From contig CAJXTB010000010.1 in assembly GCA_913061235.1 (NCBI GenBank), positions 1 to 64,000 of the forward strand: 64,000 bases of DNA, written 5' to 3'. Origin of the DNA: an uncultured Pseudomonadota bacterium (lineage in GTDB: Bacteria > Myxococcota_A > UBA796 > GCA-2862545). The first letter of the stretch is position 1. The number at the start of each line of letters is the position of its first letter. Positions 243 through 17,046 of the stretch are shown here, in pieces. Under the pieces are notes generated by a model. It saw nothing but the letters and a program-made list of their open reading frames with translations. It did not search any database and was not told where the DNA came from. Both the position numbers and the translations under genes were made by a program.

Positions 243-1202
243 TTAGACCGCAGCCAGCAACTCGATCTGAGCGCGAGCCTGAGCCAGTCGCTTCGGGTCC
301 ATCATGAGACCATCGGCGAGCACGAAATGCAGGTCGTGCAGCCCGATAAATCCCAGCACGTGGCGTAGCCAAGGAGTTACGAAGTCGAGTTCGCCGCCCA
401 CGCGTGTGCCACCGGATGTGAGCACGATGGTGACAGGGCGGTCTGGGAGCAACCCGCGGGGCCCGTCGTCGGTGTACGCGAAGGTCTCACGGGCGCGCGC
501 TACCAGGTCGATCCAGGCTTTGAACGCGGCCGGTACACCGAAGTTGTAGATGGGCAGCGCCAACACGATGTGTTCCGCTGCGCGTAGCTCATCCATCAGC
601 GTCTCGGATGCCTGCGCTGCCCGTTGTTGGCTGGGCGTGCGTTCGTCGGCGGGGGTGTTGAACGCCTCGAGCATATCGGGATTCAGCAACGGCACGCCGT
701 CGGTGAGCTCACGACGCACGACGCGTCGTTCCGGCGATTGCCCGGCGAGCCGAGCCACCACCTCGTCGGCCAGCTTACGACTGACGGAGCCTTCATGGCG
801 GGCACTGGCGTCGATGCGCAGCAAGGGGCCGCTGACGTCGGCAGACGGTGGTAGTGGCGCAGTGGAGATGGCCTGCTGAAGGCGCACCGTGTCCAGTTTG
901 AGCGCTGGGCCGAGCCAGACGGCCTGGTCTCGGTGCTCTCGCAACACGTCATCGGTCAGAGGATGCACCATCAGGGAGAGATCACCACAGTGATGCTGAA
1001 GCCAGGCGAACAAGGTCCCCGCGTCGAGTAGGGTGAGCGTGACTTGGAACATCGGTGCCGGATGAAAAGCGACCGGCCTTTCGTGTAGGCCGCCGAGCTC
1101 AGCTTGGGGAAAGCGACCGGCGATGGCCTCGCGCAGAAGCATTGCCTGGTCGCGCAACGCGGGAGTGGGCCAGTAAACGTGCAGGTGGTAGCGGGTGGAC
1201 AT
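243..1202 (-). CDS. DOPA 4,5-dioxygenase-like / FMN-dependent NADH:quinone (azo)reductase fusion
   Basis: This is a 319-residue two-domain cytoplasmic enzyme. Residues 1 to about 110 match the small DOPA 4,5-dioxygenase family: HLHVYW near the start, then PVAFHPAPMFQV and LMVHPLTDD, which supply the conserved histidines. Residues from about 125 to the end match AzoR-type flavodoxin-fold reductases (LALPIYNFGVPAAFKAW, RARETFAYT, GPRGLLPDRP, LTSGG). A short proline-containing linker joins them with no frame break. The start is the ATG at 1200-1202; the open frame further upstream runs antisense through the regulator gene and is not used. The reductase could return quinones to catechols, which the dioxygenase would then cleave. 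That pairing is inference; each family assignment is firm. Confidence 0.88.
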   Translation of the reverse strand: MSTRYHLHVYWPTPALRDQAMLLREAIAGRFPQAELGGLHERPVAFHPAPMFQVTLTLLDAGTLFAWLQHHCGDLSLMVHPLTDDVLREHRDQAVWLGPALKLDTVRLQQAISTAPLPPSADVSGPLLRIDASARHEGSVSRKLADEVVARLAGQSPERRVVRRELTDGVPLLNPDMLEAFNTPADERTPSQQRAAQASETLMDELRAAEHIVLALPIYNFGVPAAFKAWIDLVARARETFAYTDDGPRGLLPDRPVTIVLTSGGTRVGGELDFVTPWLRHVLGFIGLHDLHFVLADGLMMDPKRLAQARAQIELLAAV

Positions 1203-1260
1203 GCGGAACTCCAGGGGGCTTGTTGGAACACCCGCTGTGTAGGCTCCTGCGTCAATCTTG

Positions 1261-1273
1261 ATAATAGAGTTAT
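1261..1273. promoter_or_regulatory. AT-rich palindrome in divergent intergenic region
   Basis: ATAA-N5-TTAT lies in the 106-bp space between the divergent fusion enzyme and LysR genes. It is notably AT-rich against GC-rich surroundings. LysR-type regulators commonly bind short imperfect palindromes at such positions, so this is a plausible operator, but nothing else in the sequence proves it. Confidence 0.3.
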
Positions 1274-1308
1274 GGGTTGATACATTGTCCCGAAAATCAG
1301 GATGATCG

Positions 1309-2193
1309 ATGCACACCGACTCAGTGACTCTCAAGGCCTTCGCCCGCGTGGCCCGCCTGGGCAGCTTCGCTGCGGCCGCACGGGAGCTGCGCCTCTCCAC
1401 CACCGCGGTCAGTCGGCGGGTGGCCTCCCTAGAAGAGCAGCTCGGCGCTCGCCTGCTGCATCGCAGTACACGACGCCTTAGCCTCACCCAGGCCGGTGAG
1501 GTGGCGCTCGGGCGCGTCGAGCGCGTGCTCGACGATCTGATGGAGCTAGAGGACGCCGTCGGGGGCTCTGCCGCCCCGTCTGGACACCTGCGCATCACGT
1601 CGGGTGTGTCGGTGGGCCTGTCGTTCCTGCACGGCCTGTTGCCTGCATTCCTGCGCGACCATGCCAACGTCACGGTCGAGGTGCTGGAGACCGACGAGCA
1701 CGTGGATCTCGTGGAGCGGCGCATCGACCTCGCCCTTCGCATCGGCGCGCTCACTGATTCAGGCTTGATTGCGCGCCGATTGGCAGCTGTCACCCACCGC
1801 GTCTGCGCAGCCCCAGCCTGGCTCGACGCGCGAGCACCCCTGGACGCGACATGCCTCGAAGCGCTCCCCCGCATCGTCGATACCAACCAACCCGGGACGT
1901 GGCGGCTCACCGGGCCCGACGATCAATCCGTCGAGCTACCCGCACATGGCCGATTGGCGGTCAATAGCGCCCACGGTGTCCGCGATGCCTGTCTGGCTGG
2001 CATGGGGTTGGCGATGCTGCCTAGCTTCGTGGTGGCCGCCGATCTGGAGCAGGGAACGCTCGTCGACGCGCTGCCCGGGTGGTTCGGACCAGAATTGGGA
2101 CTGTACGCTGTGGTGCTCGAGCGGAGGTGGATGTCGAGTGCGGTTCGGGCGCTGATGACCCACGTGCAGGGGGCGGCGCAGGAGGTCTTTTAG
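1309..2193 (+). CDS. LysR-type transcriptional regulator
   Basis: This 294-residue regulator has the LysR layout: an N-terminal winged helix-turn-helix at about residues 1-60 (FAAAARELRLSTTAVSRRV, LGARLLHRSTRRLSLT) and a C-terminal periplasmic-binding-protein-like effector domain (LRITSGVSVGLSFL, DLALRIG). It is transcribed away from the dioxygenase/azoreductase fusion gene, which is the usual arrangement for a LysR protein controlling its neighbour. The likely inducer would be a quinone or aromatic compound, inferred from the neighbour. It ends 21 bp from the convergent HMG-CoA synthase gene. Confidence 0.93.
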   Translation: MHTDSVTLKAFARVARLGSFAAAARELRLSTTAVSRRVASLEEQLGARLLHRSTRRLSLTQAGEVALGRVERVLDDLMELEDAVGGSAAPSGHLRITSGVSVGLSFLHGLLPAFLRDHANVTVEVLETDEHVDLVERRIDLALRIGALTDSGLIARRLAAVTHRVCAAPAWLDARAPLDATCLEALPRIVDTNQPGTWRLTGPDDQSVELPAHGRLAVNSAHGVRDACLAGMGLAMLPSFVVAADLEQGTLVDALPGWFGPELGLYAVVLERRWMSSAVRALMTHVQGAAQEVF

Positions 2194-2214: not shown

Positions 2215-3738
2215 CTAGGCCACCCAGGCGTACACGCGCTGACCTTCCTGGTCACCACCCTTCACCTCGCGCAAGACGAACTCCTTGGACGGACTCACCA
2301 CGCTGGTCTGTTGGGCACCGCGATGAAGGGTCTCGTATTGCTCTGCCGAGATGGGAGTGCGTTCCGCTAGACGACCAAACAGGTCGAACTGCGCTGTCAC
2401 CGCCTGCCATCCGGGCTGTACGACGCCCTCGAACACCTTCGCCTTGGCCCCGGACCCGTAGCCACAAAGGCCGATGCGAGCGCCGGCGAGGTCGTTGCCT
2501 TGGGACAAATCGGACTCGAGCGTGCTCATCAACGCCAGGAAGAGTGAGCCTGTGTATTGGTTGCCGACCAGACTGCTCGCGCGCTGGCCTCGCTCGATTT
2601 TATCGTCCACAAACGCTCGGTACTCGGCCGTCTTGGACACGCTGCGTCGGAATGCCTCGCGGTCGGCCTGATAGGCTTCCTCGTCGGCGTAGTCGTCCCG
2701 AGCCGGGGCGGGACCGACTTGTTCGGCGACGGGGGCCCAGTCTGCGCGGTGCTTGCGGTCGTGGTGGAAGATGTCCGGAAACATCCTCTTCCCTTGGAAC
2801 GCATACGGAAGATGGCACACGATGCGGCTCCACTGCTCTGTGAGCACGGGGTCGCTGGTGTTCATTCGGCCAGTGCGGAGCGATTCCTCACGAAAGTGTC
2901 CAAACGCCAGCTTGACGGCCTGCCGGTAGCACTGGTTCGAGAAGGCGCCGTCGAACAGTGGGGTGTCCTTGTGAACGGTGATGGTTTCGCCCTCGAATAG
3001 GCTGTCTTCGCCTTCCCGCAGCGCTTGCATCATGCGGTCCGTCAAGCCGTCTGGCAGCTCGGCGCCGGCCTTTGTCGCGAGGTGCAAGACATGTTCGAGC
3101 ATGTCCCGCACGGGCATCTTGCGGCGGGGCTTGAAGAAGTCGTGCACCGCGCGGGTGGAGACGCCGAACACAGGGCCGATGACCAGCAAGCGTGGGTCCT
3201 TGCGCACGATCATGGCGCCCGCGCCCGCGCCTTGGGTGTACTCTCCGGAACTATGCCGTTCGTACTTGGCGTTGTCAGAGAAGGCTACGATGCCAATTCG
3301 GTCCTCGTCGTCTGCGCGAGCCACCCAGTCGAGCGTGTTGTGGAGTGCGTCCACGGCCCCGATGCAGGCAAAAGTGAGGTCCACAGCATCGCAGCGCGAG
3401 AAACAAGCCGCGCCGTAGCGGTCTTGGTAGCGCTGAGTCAGCATGTCCAAGATGTAGGTGGCTGTGGGCTTGGCGCCATCCAGAGCGCTCTCGGTGCCTA
3501 GGTACAAGCGGCCAATGGTGCGTGGGTCGAGTTCATTGCGGTCGATGAGCCTGGCTACTGCATTGGCTGCCATGGTCGCGGGATCTTCATGCACGTCGGG
3601 CACGGCCATCGCCTCAAGACCCAGACCCTTGGAGAGCTTTGCGTAGCTGGCGCTACGAAGGTCCGCGAAATCCTGCATGGACAGGTATAGACGTGGCATA
3701 TGCACCGCGATGTCATCGATGCCGACCTGAATATCCAT
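2215..3738 (-). CDS. Hydroxymethylglutaryl-CoA synthase family protein
   Basis: This 507-residue thiolase-fold enzyme condenses acetyl-CoA with an acetoacetyl group to give HMG-CoA (mevalonate route), or performs a related beta-branching step. Visible family marks are GTES near residue 83 (catalytic Glu), nucleophile Cys125 in LTFACIGAVDAL, CHLPYAFQGKRMFPDIF with the catalytic His, and YGSGAKAKVFEG near the end. It is longer than most bacterial MvaS proteins (about 390 residues), with an extra charged stretch before the C-terminal domain. The start is the ATG at 3736-3738 with GGGAGA just upstream. There is no carrier-protein or polyketide neighbour, which favours isoprenoid or leucine-linked metabolism over a PKS role. 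The 258 bases upstream (3739-3996) hold no gene I can support. Confidence 0.9.
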   Translation of the reverse strand: MDIQVGIDDIAVHMPRLYLSMQDFADLRSASYAKLSKGLGLEAMAVPDVHEDPATMAANAVARLIDRNELDPRTIGRLYLGTESALDGAKPTATYILDMLTQRYQDRYGAACFSRCDAVDLTFACIGAVDALHNTLDWVARADDEDRIGIVAFSDNAKYERHSSGEYTQGAGAGAMIVRKDPRLLVIGPVFGVSTRAVHDFFKPRRKMPVRDMLEHVLHLATKAGAELPDGLTDRMMQALREGEDSLFEGETITVHKDTPLFDGAFSNQCYRQAVKLAFGHFREESLRTGRMNTSDPVLTEQWSRIVCHLPYAFQGKRMFPDIFHHDRKHRADWAPVAEQVGPAPARDDYADEEAYQADREAFRRSVSKTAEYRAFVDDKIERGQRASSLVGNQYTGSLFLALMSTLESDLSQGNDLAGARIGLCGYGSGAKAKVFEGVVQPGWQAVTAQFDLFGRLAERTPISAEQYETLHRGAQQTSVVSPSKEFVLREVKGGDQEGQRVYAWVA

Positions 3739-3996
3739 TGGTTCTCCCAAGGGTTAAGCGCCCTATCGGTATTCGCGGTCTGGAAGTGACGCCTCCTGTT
3801 GGATGTAGATTTCCGTCGGCGTTGGGGCGCGACCGCCTAGTCGCTTGGCACGAGTCCGCCCGTTGACGGGGCTTCGCAGGCAGTCTCGCGAGGTCCGAAC
3901 CACCTACACCCCAAGACATGAGCGGGGTCGCCAGTGGATTCGCGAAAGCCTCGTCGGTGGCGGGTCGGATGGGGTCGCCCGGGAGCGCCGTCGTCT

Positions 3997-4849: not shown

Positions 4850-7162
4850 CTATTCCTCGTCTTGGATGCGCATGCGCTCAATGCGGTCGAGCAGGAAGCT
4901 ACGACGCTCGTTTTCATTGATATCTAGGCCCACAAGCACCGGGGTATCGGACTTGAATGCCATGCGCTGGGGCTGTACCAAGCACTCCATGCGCTGCCCG
5001 CCGCTGGTCAGGTAGACCATCTCCAGGTCGCGTTCCTTGCTCATGGCCTTCTCGATGAGCACACGGGCCTCTACGATAGTGACCGTCGGAATTTCTGCAG
5101 GTGCTTCGCCGCCAATCTTGACGACCTTGGCACCAGGAACCGGACGCAGCTTCTCGGGCTCAATGAGCGCCATGCTGCGTGCGACTGGGTCATTGAGCGC
5201 TTCACGCGCTTCGGCCACAATCTTGTGGAGGTTCTGCCTGGCTTCCTGCTGCTCCGGGTCTCCGGGGTAGCGGCGGGTTTCCTTGGCGGGGTCGAACTTG
5301 CTGTCCGCGAGCACGCCACGAATCTCGTCCAGACGGGCGGGGTCGACGGCGTAGGCACCGGGAGCAAAGCGATGAAGCAGGTATGGCTTGATGCGCTTGT
5401 TGCTCTCTAGTCGACGAATCTGCGACCGGTGAACAGTCATCAGGGTCAGCTCATGGAACTCGACGTCTCCGCGATGGCCAATCCAGCCCTTGAGGGTCTG
5501 CTCAACGTTCTCGGGTAGGCCAATCTGGCTGTTGTCGCGCAAGAACTGAAGGACGTCGTCCCGCTTCCAGCCAGCATCCAGCGCCTTTTCGACGACGGGC
5601 TGTGTGATCTTGTATGTGTTCGCACGGTCGCAACCGACCAGCTCGGCGAGCTCACCAATGCGGAACAACAACACCGGTGCGAGGCCGGCGGGTGCCATGA
5701 TCTCGAACGATGGCGTGAGGTAGAACTGCTGGAATCCGTCATTCTCGGGAGGCGAGAGCATGTGACGACCGCGGCTCGACAGGCGGTAGAACTTCTCTTG
5801 TCCCCACTGGCCCATCTCGAGCACGCCGGCACGGACCAACGGTGCGAAGCTAAACGAGTCACGCTCGTGGGTTCGGGAAGACGCGAAGGTCTGCCGCTCG
5901 AAGCGGTCACGCCAGTCTTCTCCGCGCTTCCAGCGACGGTATGTGGCCATGAGTGGACGCTCGGCGACCCAGCCTTCTGGCTCGTCTGCTGTCGTTGCGT
6001 GAATGGCCCACAGGACCCACTCTGCGAGGGGGAATCGCTTCTCCAACGCGCGGAACATGAGGTCGCGTTGGTCTTCTGGCTCGAGGGACAGCCACTCTTC
6101 CATGACTTCGCGGTTGAGCGAAAGCCACTCACCGCGCAGCTCGATCATGCTGTGCATCATCAAGAAGTCGAGGTGGAAGGCGAATAGCTCGCTCTCTGGT
6201 TCCCACAGTTGGCCGAAGAAGCCGTCCATCGCTTCTTGGTCGGAGCGGTAGATTTCCTGACGCTGAGTCAGACGGGGTGAGTGCTGGTCAATGTAGGTGG
6301 CCAGCGTGGTGATGCTGAAGTCCAACGGCGGACAGAACGGGCGCTCTTCAATGATGCGCATGTCGTCGTGCGTGAACAGCGGCAGGGCCATTTCTTCTTC
6401 GAGGTGCATGGCGATGGTGTCGACCAGCGGCTCCACGAGCATGTAGAAGAACTCGCCATCTGCCTCGTGCGTGGCCATCACGAGTCCGCGCTCGGCGAGA
6501 ATCGTCATGCTGCGCTTCCAGTCGCGCTCTTGGCCGCCGAACGACAGCCCGAGCTCACGGTGGAACTCGGATGCGTGGGCAATGCCGCCAGCCTGCAACA
6601 GAGCCGACAGTGCCTTGCGGTCGCGCTCGTGCAGGCTCTTGAGTAGCGAGCCCATGCGTGAGGTCTGGGCGATGGCACGGACAGCGAGCTGGACCATGCG
6701 CTCGCCATTCGGAACACGCTTGGGTTGTCCGCCGAGGCCCTTGTACAGGTTGGCCAGCAGCGAATCGGGCATGCGCGACACCCACTCGGTGACCGCCTTG
6801 GCTTCCGTGCGATTCAGACGACGCCGTCGTCCTCCGGCACTGCTTGGAGCGCTACGCTTGGACCGAGAAGACCGCTTGCGCTGTGGATTGCGACCCGTAC
6901 TGGGGACCGATGCGACCGGGCCGTCCATCTCGACAGCCTGACGACGTCCGCGCTTGCGAGGCTCGCCGTTGCTGTCTGCGCGGTCCGTGCGGTCCGTGCG
7001 GTCCGCGGAGCCTGCATTGGAGCCGGAGTTCGAGCGTGCGCCGTCTGGGGTAGCTCCGTATGCACCGTCTTCACCGCCGCCACGCCGTGGCCGCCGCCGC
7101 CGCCGCCGCTTGCGCTTTCCATCACCGTCACCGCTGTCGCCGTGGATCTCTTCGTCGCTCAT
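4850..7162 (-). CDS. XPB-helicase-associated protein with WYL-like C-terminus
   Basis: This 770-residue protein resembles the large helicase-associated proteins encoded beside bacterial XPB helicases (XPB/Ssl2 N-terminal-like family, as with Rv0862c in mycobacteria). The first 100 residues or so are low-complexity and strongly basic: a run of about a dozen Lys/Arg (KRKRRRRRRPRR), then Gly/Asp/Arg-rich sequence, probably a nucleic-acid-binding tail. The middle holds several winged-helix-like segments (for example LRDNSQIGLPENVEQTLKGW, typical of this family). The last 70 residues resemble a WYL fold (LEMVYLTSGGQRMECLVQP). It begins 45 bp after the XPB stop and ends 3 bp before xseB, so all three form one unit. 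It is likely a DNA-repair partner of the helicase; the exact role is not known. Confidence 0.8.
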   Translation of the reverse strand: MSDEEIHGDSGDGDGKRKRRRRRRPRRGGGEDGAYGATPDGARSNSGSNAGSADRTDRTDRADSNGEPRKRGRRQAVEMDGPVASVPSTGRNPQRKRSSRSKRSAPSSAGGRRRRLNRTEAKAVTEWVSRMPDSLLANLYKGLGGQPKRVPNGERMVQLAVRAIAQTSRMGSLLKSLHERDRKALSALLQAGGIAHASEFHRELGLSFGGQERDWKRSMTILAERGLVMATHEADGEFFYMLVEPLVDTIAMHLEEEMALPLFTHDDMRIIEERPFCPPLDFSITTLATYIDQHSPRLTQRQEIYRSDQEAMDGFFGQLWEPESELFAFHLDFLMMHSMIELRGEWLSLNREVMEEWLSLEPEDQRDLMFRALEKRFPLAEWVLWAIHATTADEPEGWVAERPLMATYRRWKRGEDWRDRFERQTFASSRTHERDSFSFAPLVRAGVLEMGQWGQEKFYRLSSRGRHMLSPPENDGFQQFYLTPSFEIMAPAGLAPVLLFRIGELAELVGCDRANTYKITQPVVEKALDAGWKRDDVLQFLRDNSQIGLPENVEQTLKGWIGHRGDVEFHELTLMTVHRSQIRRLESNKRIKPYLLHRFAPGAYAVDPARLDEIRGVLADSKFDPAKETRRYPGDPEQQEARQNLHKIVAEAREALNDPVARSMALIEPEKLRPVPGAKVVKIGGEAPAEIPTVTIVEARVLIEKAMSKERDLEMVYLTSGGQRMECLVQPQRMAFKSDTPVLVGLDINENERRSFLLDRIERMRIQDEE

Positions 7163-7207
7163 TCTGACTCCATCGGGCTCGTACAGACACCCGAATCCGT
7201 GGCGCAG

Positions 7208-8884
7208 CTATTTGGCTGCGCGCTCCTCGATGTTGTAGCGGTAGCCCTGCTCGGTGAGGAACAACTGTCGCTTGATAGCGAACTCCTGTTCCTTCGAATC
7301 GCCAGTAACTACGGTATAAAAATGGGCTTCGTCGTCCTTGGGACGGAGGATGCGACCCAATCTCTGGGCCTCCTCCTGTCGGGACCCGAATGACCCTGAC
7401 ACCTGAATAGCGACGTTTGCATCTGGCAAATCAATAGCGAAGTTGGCGACCTTACTGACGACCAACAACGTGTCTTCGCCGCTCCGAAACCGCCCAAAGA
7501 GCCTGTCGCGCTCGCGTTGTGGCGTTTTACCCGTGATCAGCGGAGCTTTTAGCTTCTTGGACAGCTCGATGAGCTGGTCAAGGTAGGTGCCGATAATGAG
7601 GATGTTGTCGTCTTTGTGACGCTCAACAAGATCAAGTGCGACGTCGATTTTCGCCGGGTTCTCGGATGCCAGTCGGAACTGAAGGGTCTTGTTGGACCGT
7701 TCGTACTTCTCCCTGGCTTTTCTCGAGAATGGGACACGGACTTCGTGACATCTGGCTTCAGCAACCCAGCCTGCCTTCTCCAAAACCTGCCAAGGCAGGT
7801 CGAAGCGCTTGGGGCCCACAAGGCTGAATACATCGCCCTCGCGGCCATCTTCACGAATCAGCGTTGCGGTCAATCCTAGGCGGCGACGGCCCTGAAGTTC
7901 TGCAGTGGCTCCGAACACAGGAGCAGGCAACAAGTGCACTTCGTCGTAGACGAGCAGTCCCCAGTTGTGGTCGCGGAACAGGTGCAGGTGCTCAAAGTCG
8001 GCGTCTTTGCTGCGACGCCAGGTCAGCACCTGGTAGGTGGCGACGGTGACGGGCCGAATCAGCTTTTCTTTGCCGGTGTACGAGCCCACTTCTTTTTCGG
8101 TGAGCGTGGTCTTGTCGATGATCTCGCGAACCCACTGGTTCACAGCACTCTGATTGTTGCAGAGGATCAACGTATGTTGTTGCACGGTCGCCATGGCGTT
8201 GAGTGCGACGATTGTCTTGCCGGCTCCACAAGGCAGAACCACCACTCCGTGCGAGCCAGCAGGGCTGCCGTCCATGTGCCAGCGCTCGACAGCGGTGTGT
8301 TGGTAGTCGCGCGGTGCGAACGCTCGGCCACCGAGGGTGGTCTCGCGAAGCTTGATAGGAAGCGGATTACCTTCGAGGAAACCGGCAATATCTTCAACGG
8401 GCCAGTTGACGAGCAGCATGCGCTGCTTGAACATTCCGCGCATGCCCGCTTCAATCTTCCAGCCCCGACGGCCGTCCCGTATGAGCAGCTCATCGGCGAC
8501 TGGAATCTTCAGTACGACCTTCTCAATGTAGGCCGTCTTGAACGTCACGCTGATGAAGTTTTCTGGGTCTTCATGAGGGTGAAGCTGGACAAGTCCGTAG
8601 CGGCTAATCGTATCATCGATGTTGGTGAGCACTTCGGCGGGAATGTCGAACTTGCTCATTCCGCGGAGGGTCTCCACAATCTCGTCACGGCCCATTCCGG
8701 AAGAAGCGGCGTTCCAGAGGGATAACGGGGTGATTTGATACGTGTGGAGCAGTTCTGGCGAGCTTTCAAGTTCTGCAAATTGTGCGAGAAAGTCACGAGA
8801 TTTATCGAAGTCCGGGTGGCGGGCTTCGAGAAGAACTTTACCATCACCCTGGACAATGACAGGGTTCGCTGGATTCATCTGCAT
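7208..8884 (-). CDS. XPB-type (SF2) DNA helicase
   Basis: This 558-residue helicase has bacterial XPB features: an N-terminal damage-recognition-like domain, Walker A LPCGAGKT near residue 218, the DEVH box in YDEVHLLPA near 313, motif III GLTAT, and motifs V-VI in IQVSGSFGSRQEEAQRLGR. XPB proteins unwind DNA with 3'-5' polarity in repair; in eukaryotes they belong to TFIIH. The start is the ATG at 8882-8884, with GGAA 6-9 bases upstream. A second ATG two codons later and an in-frame TTG two codons earlier are possible alternatives. It is the first gene of the XPB / partner / xseB unit. Confidence 0.92.
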   Translation of the reverse strand: MQMNPANPVIVQGDGKVLLEARHPDFDKSRDFLAQFAELESSPELLHTYQITPLSLWNAASSGMGRDEIVETLRGMSKFDIPAEVLTNIDDTISRYGLVQLHPHEDPENFISVTFKTAYIEKVVLKIPVADELLIRDGRRGWKIEAGMRGMFKQRMLLVNWPVEDIAGFLEGNPLPIKLRETTLGGRAFAPRDYQHTAVERWHMDGSPAGSHGVVVLPCGAGKTIVALNAMATVQQHTLILCNNQSAVNQWVREIIDKTTLTEKEVGSYTGKEKLIRPVTVATYQVLTWRRSKDADFEHLHLFRDHNWGLLVYDEVHLLPAPVFGATAELQGRRRLGLTATLIREDGREGDVFSLVGPKRFDLPWQVLEKAGWVAEARCHEVRVPFSRKAREKYERSNKTLQFRLASENPAKIDVALDLVERHKDDNILIIGTYLDQLIELSKKLKAPLITGKTPQRERDRLFGRFRSGEDTLLVVSKVANFAIDLPDANVAIQVSGSFGSRQEEAQRLGRILRPKDDEAHFYTVVTGDSKEQEFAIKRQLFLTEQGYRYNIEERAAK

Positions 8885-9203
8885 AGGCAAGTTCCATTGC
8901 TTAGCGACGACGCACCTCTGCCCGAGTTTGGGAAGGGGAACTGGAGATTGCGACGGACGGGTCCACGTCGGACCACAAGCCTGGGAGGCATCATCGTCGA
9001 AGCCATCACTGGACGGAGAGGAGTCGAATCGGCGACCGCACTGCGTCCTTCAAGGACGGCGACCGCGGGTAAATCGGGAGTGGCCAGGGCGAGAGCGCTG
9101 GTCCACCGACTGCTACGTACATTACGAACCAATCGCATGGTGTCAAGTCAACAAGTGGCCAACGCGGCGGGAGTGGGTGAGGAGTAGACGCTAGGAGCCG
9201 GTT
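8885..9203. other. Intergenic region without a supported gene
   Basis: These 319 bases separate the divergent XPB helicase and phosphotransferase genes and should hold both promoters. Small open frames here lack family signals and ribosome sites. There is a hairpin-capable GGTCC-N5-GGACC at about 8970 and a stretch at 9010-9115 with tRNA-like D- and T-loop words, but the stems do not close and no tRNA can be called. Confidence 0.6.
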
Positions 9204-11785: not shown

Positions 11786-12925
11786 CTACCGAGCGGGTGG
11801 GTCGAGATTCCAGCGGTACAGTGTGGCGGCTTGGGTAAATCCGGCACCGGCGCCGTACATCAGCAGCAGGTCGCCCTTCTTGAGTCGGCCTGTCTCCCAC
11901 GCAATGCACACGTTGAGCGGCAGGCTTGCGACCACACAGTGACCGAACTTTTTGTAGTGGTCTTCGTAGGGGACCCACTTGCGCGGGTCTCCGAGTCCAA
12001 CCGCCTCGGCCAACGCCTGGCCGAACCAAGACGCGCTCTGCGGCAGGCAGATGAAGTCGACGTCTTCCACGTTGTAGCCGTGTAGGTCGAGAACCTCGTG
12101 GCAGGCTTCCTTGCACAGCGTTGCCGACCGAGCGCCCATGATGTGGGTGGCCTTTCGGTCGTCATTTGTGGCGTAAAAGCGACCTTTGTGAATGTCTGCC
12201 TGCCACCAAGGGACGTCCGGCTTTCCCTCCGGCAGCATGACGATGCCACGGTGGAGGTCTCCGCGTGAGCGCTGGATGTGGCCAATGTATCCGTGTCCTG
12301 GGTCCACTTTGCCGACAACACTGGCGACTGCGGCGTCTCCCACGTTGACCGAGCCTGGGTAGCCGTAGTCGGTGCACTTGGACATGGCGCCGGACACGCA
12401 GATGACCGAGTGCTTGTGTTCGCCGACCTGGGCCATTCGGGACGCGGTCATGATCATAGGCAAGTACGTCGCACACCCCGACGCCAAGGTGGCTGCAAAG
12501 GTCTCTTCGCGCAGCCCAAGCATGTGGTGGACCAAGCAGTGGTTTTGCGGCTCAATCTCGTCTGGCACGGTGGAGTAGCCGTAGTAGGCATCGATGTTGT
12601 CTTTGGCGATACCCGACCGTGCGATGGCCTGTTCTGCGGCTCCAGTCTCCATCTCGCTGGACAGCTCGTCTTCGCGCATCACTCGCCGCTCGTGGGCACC
12701 TCGAAACAGGTCGTGTGCCCACCGTGTCGTGCCGCGAGCGACTTCTGGGTCAACATCCGCGCGGCCGTCTCGAACCGCCTTGTCCACACCTGCCGTCACA
12801 TCCGCTTGTACGCGAGAGGTGTAGCGCTGGCGCCAGTCCTCGCCCCAGAACTCGTTGGTGCGAATGTGCTCGGGCACGTACTTAGCAATGCTCAAAAGGC
12901 CGAAGCCGATTGCGTCGGTGGACAT
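11786..12925 (-). CDS. KAS III (FabH)-like thiolase-fold enzyme with altered active site
   Basis: This 379-residue protein of the 3-oxoacyl-ACP synthase III family has its nucleophile at Cys151 (TLASGCATYL) and a C-terminal glycine-rich loop MYGAGAGFT. The other two FabH residues are changed: the PHQAN position reads PQSAS (His to Gln295), and the GNTSAAS position reads GHCVVAS (Asn to His329). KAS III relatives with replaced His/Asn often act as acyltransferases or condensing enzymes with other chemistry, so normal fatty-acid initiation is doubtful. The start is the ATG at 12923-12925, preceded by AGGGGG; in-frame codons further upstream lack a ribosome site. It stands alone, with no acyl carrier protein nearby. 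Confidence 0.82.
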   Translation of the reverse strand: MSTDAIGFGLLSIAKYVPEHIRTNEFWGEDWRQRYTSRVQADVTAGVDKAVRDGRADVDPEVARGTTRWAHDLFRGAHERRVMREDELSSEMETGAAEQAIARSGIAKDNIDAYYGYSTVPDEIEPQNHCLVHHMLGLREETFAATLASGCATYLPMIMTASRMAQVGEHKHSVICVSGAMSKCTDYGYPGSVNVGDAAVASVVGKVDPGHGYIGHIQRSRGDLHRGIVMLPEGKPDVPWWQADIHKGRFYATNDDRKATHIMGARSATLCKEACHEVLDLHGYNVEDVDFICLPQSASWFGQALAEAVGLGDPRKWVPYEDHYKKFGHCVVASLPLNVCIAWETGRLKKGDLLLMYGAGAGFTQAATLYRWNLDPPAR

Positions 12926-12950
12926 CACAACCCCCTGTGAGGCGCAAGGG

Positions 12951-12979
12951 TACCTGATGCTGCCAATGTGGCAAGTCAA
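12951..12979 (-). promoter_or_regulatory. Possible promoter with operator-like palindrome for the KAS III-like gene
   Basis: On the minus strand, TTGACT (12974-12979) is followed 17 bases later by CAGGTA at 12951-12956. The first is a good -35 match and the second a poor -10. The spacer contains the perfect palindrome TGCCA-ATG-TGGCA (12961-12973), placed where a repressor would block polymerase. The gene starts 26 bases downstream. Position and symmetry support a regulatory site; the weak -10 keeps confidence low. Confidence 0.35.
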
Positions 12980-16267: not shown

Positions 16268-16942
16268 CTACGGAATGCCCTGAATCTGCGTGGTGAGGGT
16301 GCTCAACGACTGGTAGCCGGTGGTGTGCCAGCTCACGGTGCCGCTCGCGTCAATGGTGGTGTAGCTGTAGCGGGTGTTGCCCCAGTTGCTGAACCAGTCC
16401 CCGTCGTCGTCTGCGACGGCGTTGACTGTCAGTCCAAGACCCTGCTTGAAACGAACAATATCCGCAGAGTCTGGCGGGTTGAAGTTGTTGTCTTCGACCA
16501 CCACTATGACCACTTCTAGGTCCGCTGGAGCGTCGGAGCTGGCGGCCCACTCGTTGACGTCCTCAGCGAGGTTGTTGCAGGGAGGACACCACATCGCGTT
16601 GCCCATGACCAAGACGCGTGACCCTTCCAAGTCGGACAATGCAAAGTCGGCGTTGGTCTCGTCGGGAAGCACGAACTCTGGCGCACAGCTACCCGCGATG
16701 AGGGCGCAAACCTCGGTACTGTCGGTGTCTGCGTCATCGGTGTCCGCGTCCTCGGTGTCCGCGTCATCGGTGTCCGCGTCCTCGGTGTCCGCGTCCTCGG
16801 TGTCTGCGTCCTCGGTGTCTGCGTCCTCGGTGTCTGCGTCTTCCGGTGCCTCTGTGTCCACGCCATCGGTGTCCGACTCAGTGTCGTCGGTTGTAGATGT
16901 GCAACCGGCGCAAATCAGTAGTGCGAGTGTTGCGTAGCGCAT
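16268..16942 (-). CDS. Thioredoxin/TlpA-like lipoprotein with acidic repeat linker
   Basis: This 224-residue lipoprotein has a lipobox (LLICAGC) and a perfect GGAGG before the ATG at 16940-16942. After the lipidated Cys comes a run of about eight EDADT pentapeptides, a flexible, highly negative spacer. The C-terminal 130 residues are a TlpA/redoxin-type thioredoxin fold (FALSDLEGSRVLVMGNAMWC-type strand, active-site CPPC in WCPPCNN, then LEVVIVVVEDN). It probably reduces or makes disulfides in secreted proteins at the membrane surface. It is the last gene of a same-strand series of envelope genes. Confidence 0.88.
   Translation of the reverse strand: MRYATLALLICAGCTSTTDDTESDTDGVDTEAPEDADTEDADTEDADTEDADTEDADTDDADTEDADTDDADTDSTEVCALIAGSCAPEFVLPDETNADFALSDLEGSRVLVMGNAMWCPPCNNLAEDVNEWAASSDAPADLEVVIVVVEDNNFNPPDSADIVRFKQGLGLTVNAVADDDGDWFSNWGNTRYSYTTIDASGTVSWHTTGYQSLSTLTTQIQGIP
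16722..16845. repeat. 15-bp tandem repeat encoding EDADT linker
   Basis: About eight in-frame copies of a 15-bp unit (GTGTCCGCGTCCTCG and close variants) encode the acidic linker of the thioredoxin-like lipoprotein. Copies differ mainly at wobble positions and in E/D choice. The near-identity of units suggests recent expansion by slippage. It has no CRISPR features: it is coding, and the units directly abut. Confidence 0.9.
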
Positions 16943-17046
16943 GGGGAACCTCCGAGGACTCTGCGTATGACGGTGCGGCCTCTTGGTTTCTTTGAGGGTG
17001 CGATTCCTGGGCAGCGTCAATAGCCATTCCGACAGCGCCGAGCGGC

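Follow-up and report, generated by a model that had tools for sequence, protein, structure and literature searches.

This locus raises the question of whether a small ring-cleaving dioxygenase and a quinone reductase are really joined in a single polypeptide and, if so, whether the two enzymes serve a common function. It lies within a window of 64,000 nucleotides, the whole stretch of DNA that was analysed. On the minus strand, positions 243 to 1202 contain a single uninterrupted frame of 319 amino acids, which starts with ATG at 1202 and terminates with TAA at 243-245. In the six-frame listing, the mechanical ORF reaches further upstream to a GTG at 1910. This extension is antisense to the adjacent LysR gene, and homology of the fused protein starts at ATG 1202. 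Pfam analysis revealed a PF08883 domain (residues 5-105), followed by a linker of 21 residues and an AzoR-type reductase domain (residues 127-312). A frameshift between the domains, which had been named as an objection to the fusion, was looked for and is absent, as is any stop codon in the joining frame. The initial annotation, which had read the locus as a DOPA 4,5-dioxygenase-like domain fused in one frame to an AzoR-type reductase under a LysR regulator, was confirmed with regard to the single frame, both domains and the adjoining regulator gene. The gene fusion is real and has so far been detected in one genome. The features of the locus are as follows.

243..1202, minus strand: fused gene with a PF08883 dioxygenase domain and an AzoR-type FMN reductase domain (single open frame, two Pfam domains)
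888..1190, minus strand: DOPA 4,5-dioxygenase family domain, residues 5-105 (Pfam PF08883, alignment, AlphaFold2 model, Foldseek)
825..887, minus strand: linker, residues 106-126, VRLQQAISTAPLPPSADVSGP, rich in Pro, Ser and Ala (low model confidence)
267..824, minus strand: AzoR-type FMN-dependent NADH:quinone/azo reductase domain, residues 127-312 (Pfam, PDB matches, alignment, model)
1203..1308, no strand: intergenic region between the divergent genes; two TTGATA repeats at a distance of 19 bp, two weak matches of the sigma-70 type
1309..2193, plus strand: LysR-type regulator of 294 aa, divergent from the fused gene (HTH_1 and LysR_substrate, Pfam)

The N-terminal half belongs to the family DOPA_dioxygen (PF08883; E 5.6e-23, 81.6 bits compared to a gathering score of 25). 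In an alignment of 16 PF08883 proteins, it retains all invariant residues (H6, H8, G37, Q53, L68, H80, H90, W96 and G98). H47 is kept as well, while the surrounding GPH motif, which is common in PF08883 proteins but is not part of the definition of the profile, reads AFH; a relative at locus L003 has GPY at this position. Due to the replacement of the near-invariant G-P before H47 by A-F, the pocket may be different. The AlphaFold2 model of this half reached a pLDDT of 94, and the best Foldseek matches were the putative dioxygenases 2peb (TM 0.93), 2p8i and 2nyh, with TM values ranging from 0.84 to 0.93. The fold and the conserved histidines are thus shared with the small DOPA 4,5-dioxygenases of PF08883 (GdDODA, 2nyh, 2p8i and 2peb). 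What separates the window protein from them is its fusion to a reductase and the AFH in place of GPH, since the others are stand-alone small proteins, GdDODA being a dimer.

The C-terminal half matched Flavodoxin_2 (PF02525) over residues 127-312 (E 1.3e-43, 149.5 bits, cut-off 27). Its top NCBIfam matches were FMN-dependent NADH-azoreductases, all scoring below the curated cut-offs, and solved AzoR chains in the PDB matched it with E 1e-31. The FMN-site motifs PIYNFGVP and SGGT are kept in the alignment, and the half was modelled at a pLDDT of about 90. It aligns over nearly the whole domain of the AzoR family (PDB 1v4b, 4c0w, 4ese). However, its relatives of known structure occur as stand-alone proteins with a length of about 200-237 aa, while the window protein has the PF08883 domain in addition at its N-terminus. 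Both halves were aligned separately; a mixed alignment misplaced the short dioxygenases. In the model of the full-length protein, whose alignment held reductase relatives only, residues 80-122 had pLDDT values below 50, and for this reason the model does not fix how the two domains are positioned to each other. A search of the source assembly with the fused protein as query, at the sensitivity of that query, detected no second copy of either half.

To put the fusion into context, separate genes for the two proteins are instructive. Adjacent AzoR and PF08883 (DODA) genes were found at seven other loci, in three gene contexts.

L003, L006, L012, L015, L028: SDR-AzoR-DODA beside a divergent TetR-type gene (Glaciecola, Colwellia (three), Moritella)
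L076: LysR gene diverging from DoxX-AzoR-DODA (gammaproteobacterial MAG)
L087: AzoR-DODA with a 4-base overlap (genome of the same phylum as the window)

The gene families of the TetR-associated cluster were checked by Pfam for L006. No description of this cluster of Colwellia, Moritella and Glaciecola was found. In Pseudoalteromonas (L073), the dioxygenase gene is located at the opposite side of the TetR gene. Both domains of the window protein are homologous to the products of these pairs (about 44-50% and 26-39% identity), and the L076 pair, like the fused gene, has a LysR gene beside it. By contrast, the pairs consist of two genes of which AzoR comes first in every case, while in the window a single chain begins with the dioxygenase. 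Because of this order, a simple loss of a stop codon between ancestral neighbours does not account for the fusion. Two separate genes with the stop restored, which had been considered as evidence against a fusion, were not found; the separate genes detected have the opposite order. Of 30 PF08883 genes in a sample of Pseudomonadota, not one adjoins an AzoR gene, so the pairing appears to be confined to certain lineages.

The fused gene probably combines in one protein a known pair of enzymes for quinone detoxification. The quinone-sensing repressors of B. subtilis and S. aureus regulate AzoR-type quinone reductases jointly with ring-cleavage dioxygenases, both of which aid resistance; the Bacillus/Staphylococcus quinone regulons combine AzoR1/AzoR2 with such dioxygenases, and catE-SACOL0409-azoR1 of S. 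aureus are induced together (PMC6798810). The regulons of YodB/CatR/MhqR in B. subtilis and QsrR/MhqR in S. aureus thus contain the same pair of activities as predicted for the window protein, directed at quinone and catechol detoxification (PMC6798810). They differ from the window in that the genes are separate and under MarR-type regulators, instead of one gene beside a LysR gene. Their dioxygenases CatE, MhqA, MhqE and MhqO are not known to belong to PF08883. In Paenibacillus, the azoreductase gene mhqP sits with the extradiol dioxygenase gene mhqO, and the recombinant azoreductase demethylated a lignin fragment (PMC12673573). From the latter activity it is evident that AzoR proteins may catalyse other reactions as well.

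Both domains are complete in one frame, and the seven loci with separate neighbours as well as the published pairing of AzoR with ring-cleavage dioxygenases support a role in quinone and catechol metabolism. It is fairly likely that a quinone is reduced and the ring of the ortho-dihydroxy product subsequently opened. The C-terminal AzoR half would use NAD(P)H and FMN for converting a quinone (or an azo or quinone-imine compound) to a hydroquinone or catechol, while the N-terminal half would open the ortho-dihydroxy ring by means of O2 and a metal bound by the conserved histidines. By this means, a redox-cycling, thiol-reactive quinone would yield a ring-opened product that is not re-oxidisable to quinone. 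The fused gene is probably induced by the divergently encoded LysR protein upon sensing of the aromatic. That one chain acts as a bifunctional enzyme sequentially on the same aromatic, consuming the unstable hydroquinone or catechol before it enters redox-cycling, is possible but more doubtful. What is new is the domain arrangement, for which no precedent was found; both enzyme families are known, and their co-operation is not without precedent. Against the detoxification reading, the ORFs above the length cut-off in the first 20 kb of the window include no gene of aromatic catabolism.

The fusion is a strong hint of two enzymes working together. It would tie the small PF08883 dioxygenases, whose role is obscure in most bacteria, to quinone detoxification, and it directs attention to the separate AzoR-PF08883 pairs in Colwellia, Moritella and others as relatives open to testing. 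If functional, the fused protein might also be used directly as a catalyst of two successive steps.

The substrate originally suggested for the dioxygenase needs to be qualified. The idea that the reductase and the dioxygenase share a role in quinone and catechol detoxification gained support from the neighbouring genes and from the published regulons, but plain catechol is a doubtful substrate since GdDODA, a characterised bacterial PF08883 enzyme, is a homodimer that opens L-DOPA as preferred substrate and has a Km for catechol about three orders of magnitude higher (PMC6426604). The strong preference of GdDODA is also in line with the main rival explanation, according to which the fusion is real but its domains act independently on different substrates, e.g. 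AzoR on quinones or azo compounds and PF08883 on a DOPA-like catechol, the fusion ensuring co-expression only. The lack of an adjacent AzoR gene at most of the PF08883 genes sampled and the low model confidence of the linker would fit this explanation, too. Independent action is nevertheless rather unlikely in view of the adjacency of AzoR and PF08883 genes in three gene contexts and of the published quinone regulons, in which both activities are paired (PMC6798810).

An assembly artefact joining two separate genes, as had been cautioned, would here lie near a contig end and is very unlikely. It might be suspected as the fusion occurs in one genome only and the contig opens with an untrimmed Nextera transposase adapter (first 48-49 bases), about 800 bp from the domain junction. 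However, the 19-base core of the adapter occurs 26 times in the assembly, at contig ends wherever its position could be judged and never at the junction. The recurrence at contig ends and the distance to the junction identify the adapter as an untrimmed remnant and not as a sign of a break. Moreover, frame, codon-position GC and codon usage are continuous across the junction: codon-position GC is coding-like in both halves, the codon usage of both resembles that of neighbouring genes, and the two off frames contain 7 and 8 stops. A random join would seldom be in-frame, on the same strand and unite genes that are neighbours elsewhere. It is equally improbable that two products arise from the gene, namely a free reductase initiated internally in addition to the full fusion. 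The linker contains no ATG; there are an in-frame GTG at residue 106 and a TTG at residue 127, just past the linker, but neither is preceded by a clear ribosome-binding site, and because the dioxygenase frame has no stop codon, the fusion would be made in any case. Finally, a pigment or natural-product enzyme of the betalamic acid or muscaflavin type that has a dedicated reductase, as might be imagined from the conversion of L-DOPA to betalamic acid by characterised PF08883 enzymes (PMC6426604), is extremely improbable given that no tyrosinase, DOPA-forming or other biosynthetic gene adjoins among the genes read and that the LysR-AzoR setting better matches a stress response.

The LysR gene and the fused gene are divergently oriented and separated by a gap of 106 bp (1203-1308), a region in which two promoter-like matches were found compared to 0.3 expected. 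The matches are weak and do not demonstrate a function; the region is a possible LysR operator/promoter. The window LysR is roughly 30-38% identical to LysR proteins encoded beside AzoR genes elsewhere. LysR-AzoR pairs are common: of 127 stretches retrieved (some of them duplicates), 47 have a LysR gene within 1.5 kb of AzoR. For this reason, the window resembles the common divergent LysR-AzoR pair, whose reductase gene appears to have been extended in frame by a dioxygenase at the 5' end. A DoxX gene was present within 1.5 kb of AzoR in seven of the same 127 stretches (duplicates included). At L076, L116, L117, L119, L162, L169 and L172, a DoxX-family gene directly precedes AzoR, mostly beside a LysR gene. 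In B. subtilis, DoxX and a dioxygenase are paired as CatD-CatE, which the recurrent DoxX-AzoR unit seems to resemble.

The initial annotation did not consider the architecture a standard one, and the fusion was indeed found in no other genome by sampled or partial searches. These covered 71 genomes of the source class, 377 of the source phylum and over 1,000 Pseudomonadota. No second fusion was detected in 345 genomes of the Colwellia order, among the best 30 loci inspected after searching 398 Pseudomonadota with the dioxygenase half, in 369 genomes from one gammaproteobacterial class, to which a strict cut-off was applied, or among 84,980 species genomes scanned on the basis of patterns. None of 72,556 plasmids had a single region matching 80% of the query. 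Open-access papers on a DOPA dioxygenase-azoreductase fusion were not found. Five candidates (L092, L102, L129, L136, L147), in which a PF08883 gene is surrounded by a long open frame, were rejected as fusions; their extra length seems to be a noncoding high-GC frame or sequence of a neighbouring gene, and an AzoR domain was not detected in it. As the searches were sampled or pattern-limited, the fusion may occur elsewhere. A single genome cannot demonstrate that the fused form is under selection. The source genome is the only one among the 71 of its class with a clear match to the fused gene, a hint that the gene was acquired from outside its class. Neither tree points to a donor lineage: the window sequence falls inside no well-supported group when the AzoR half is considered, and its position in the dioxygenase tree is likewise outside any well-supported group.

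Some other features of the window were recorded. A divergent HMG-CoA synthase-like protein scoring below the NCBIfam cut-offs is encoded at 2215-3750, and 8 kb from this ORF, a protein resembling ketoacyl-synthase III by eye is encoded at 11786-12979. The region 4850-8890 contains a protein with Helicase_C_3 and WYL Pfam matches, adjoining a helicase-like ORF (7208-8890) that appears XPB-like by eye. An ORF at 16268-17020 comprises an acidic repeat of the (DTEDA)n type, followed by a region that by eye is thioredoxin/redoxin-like.
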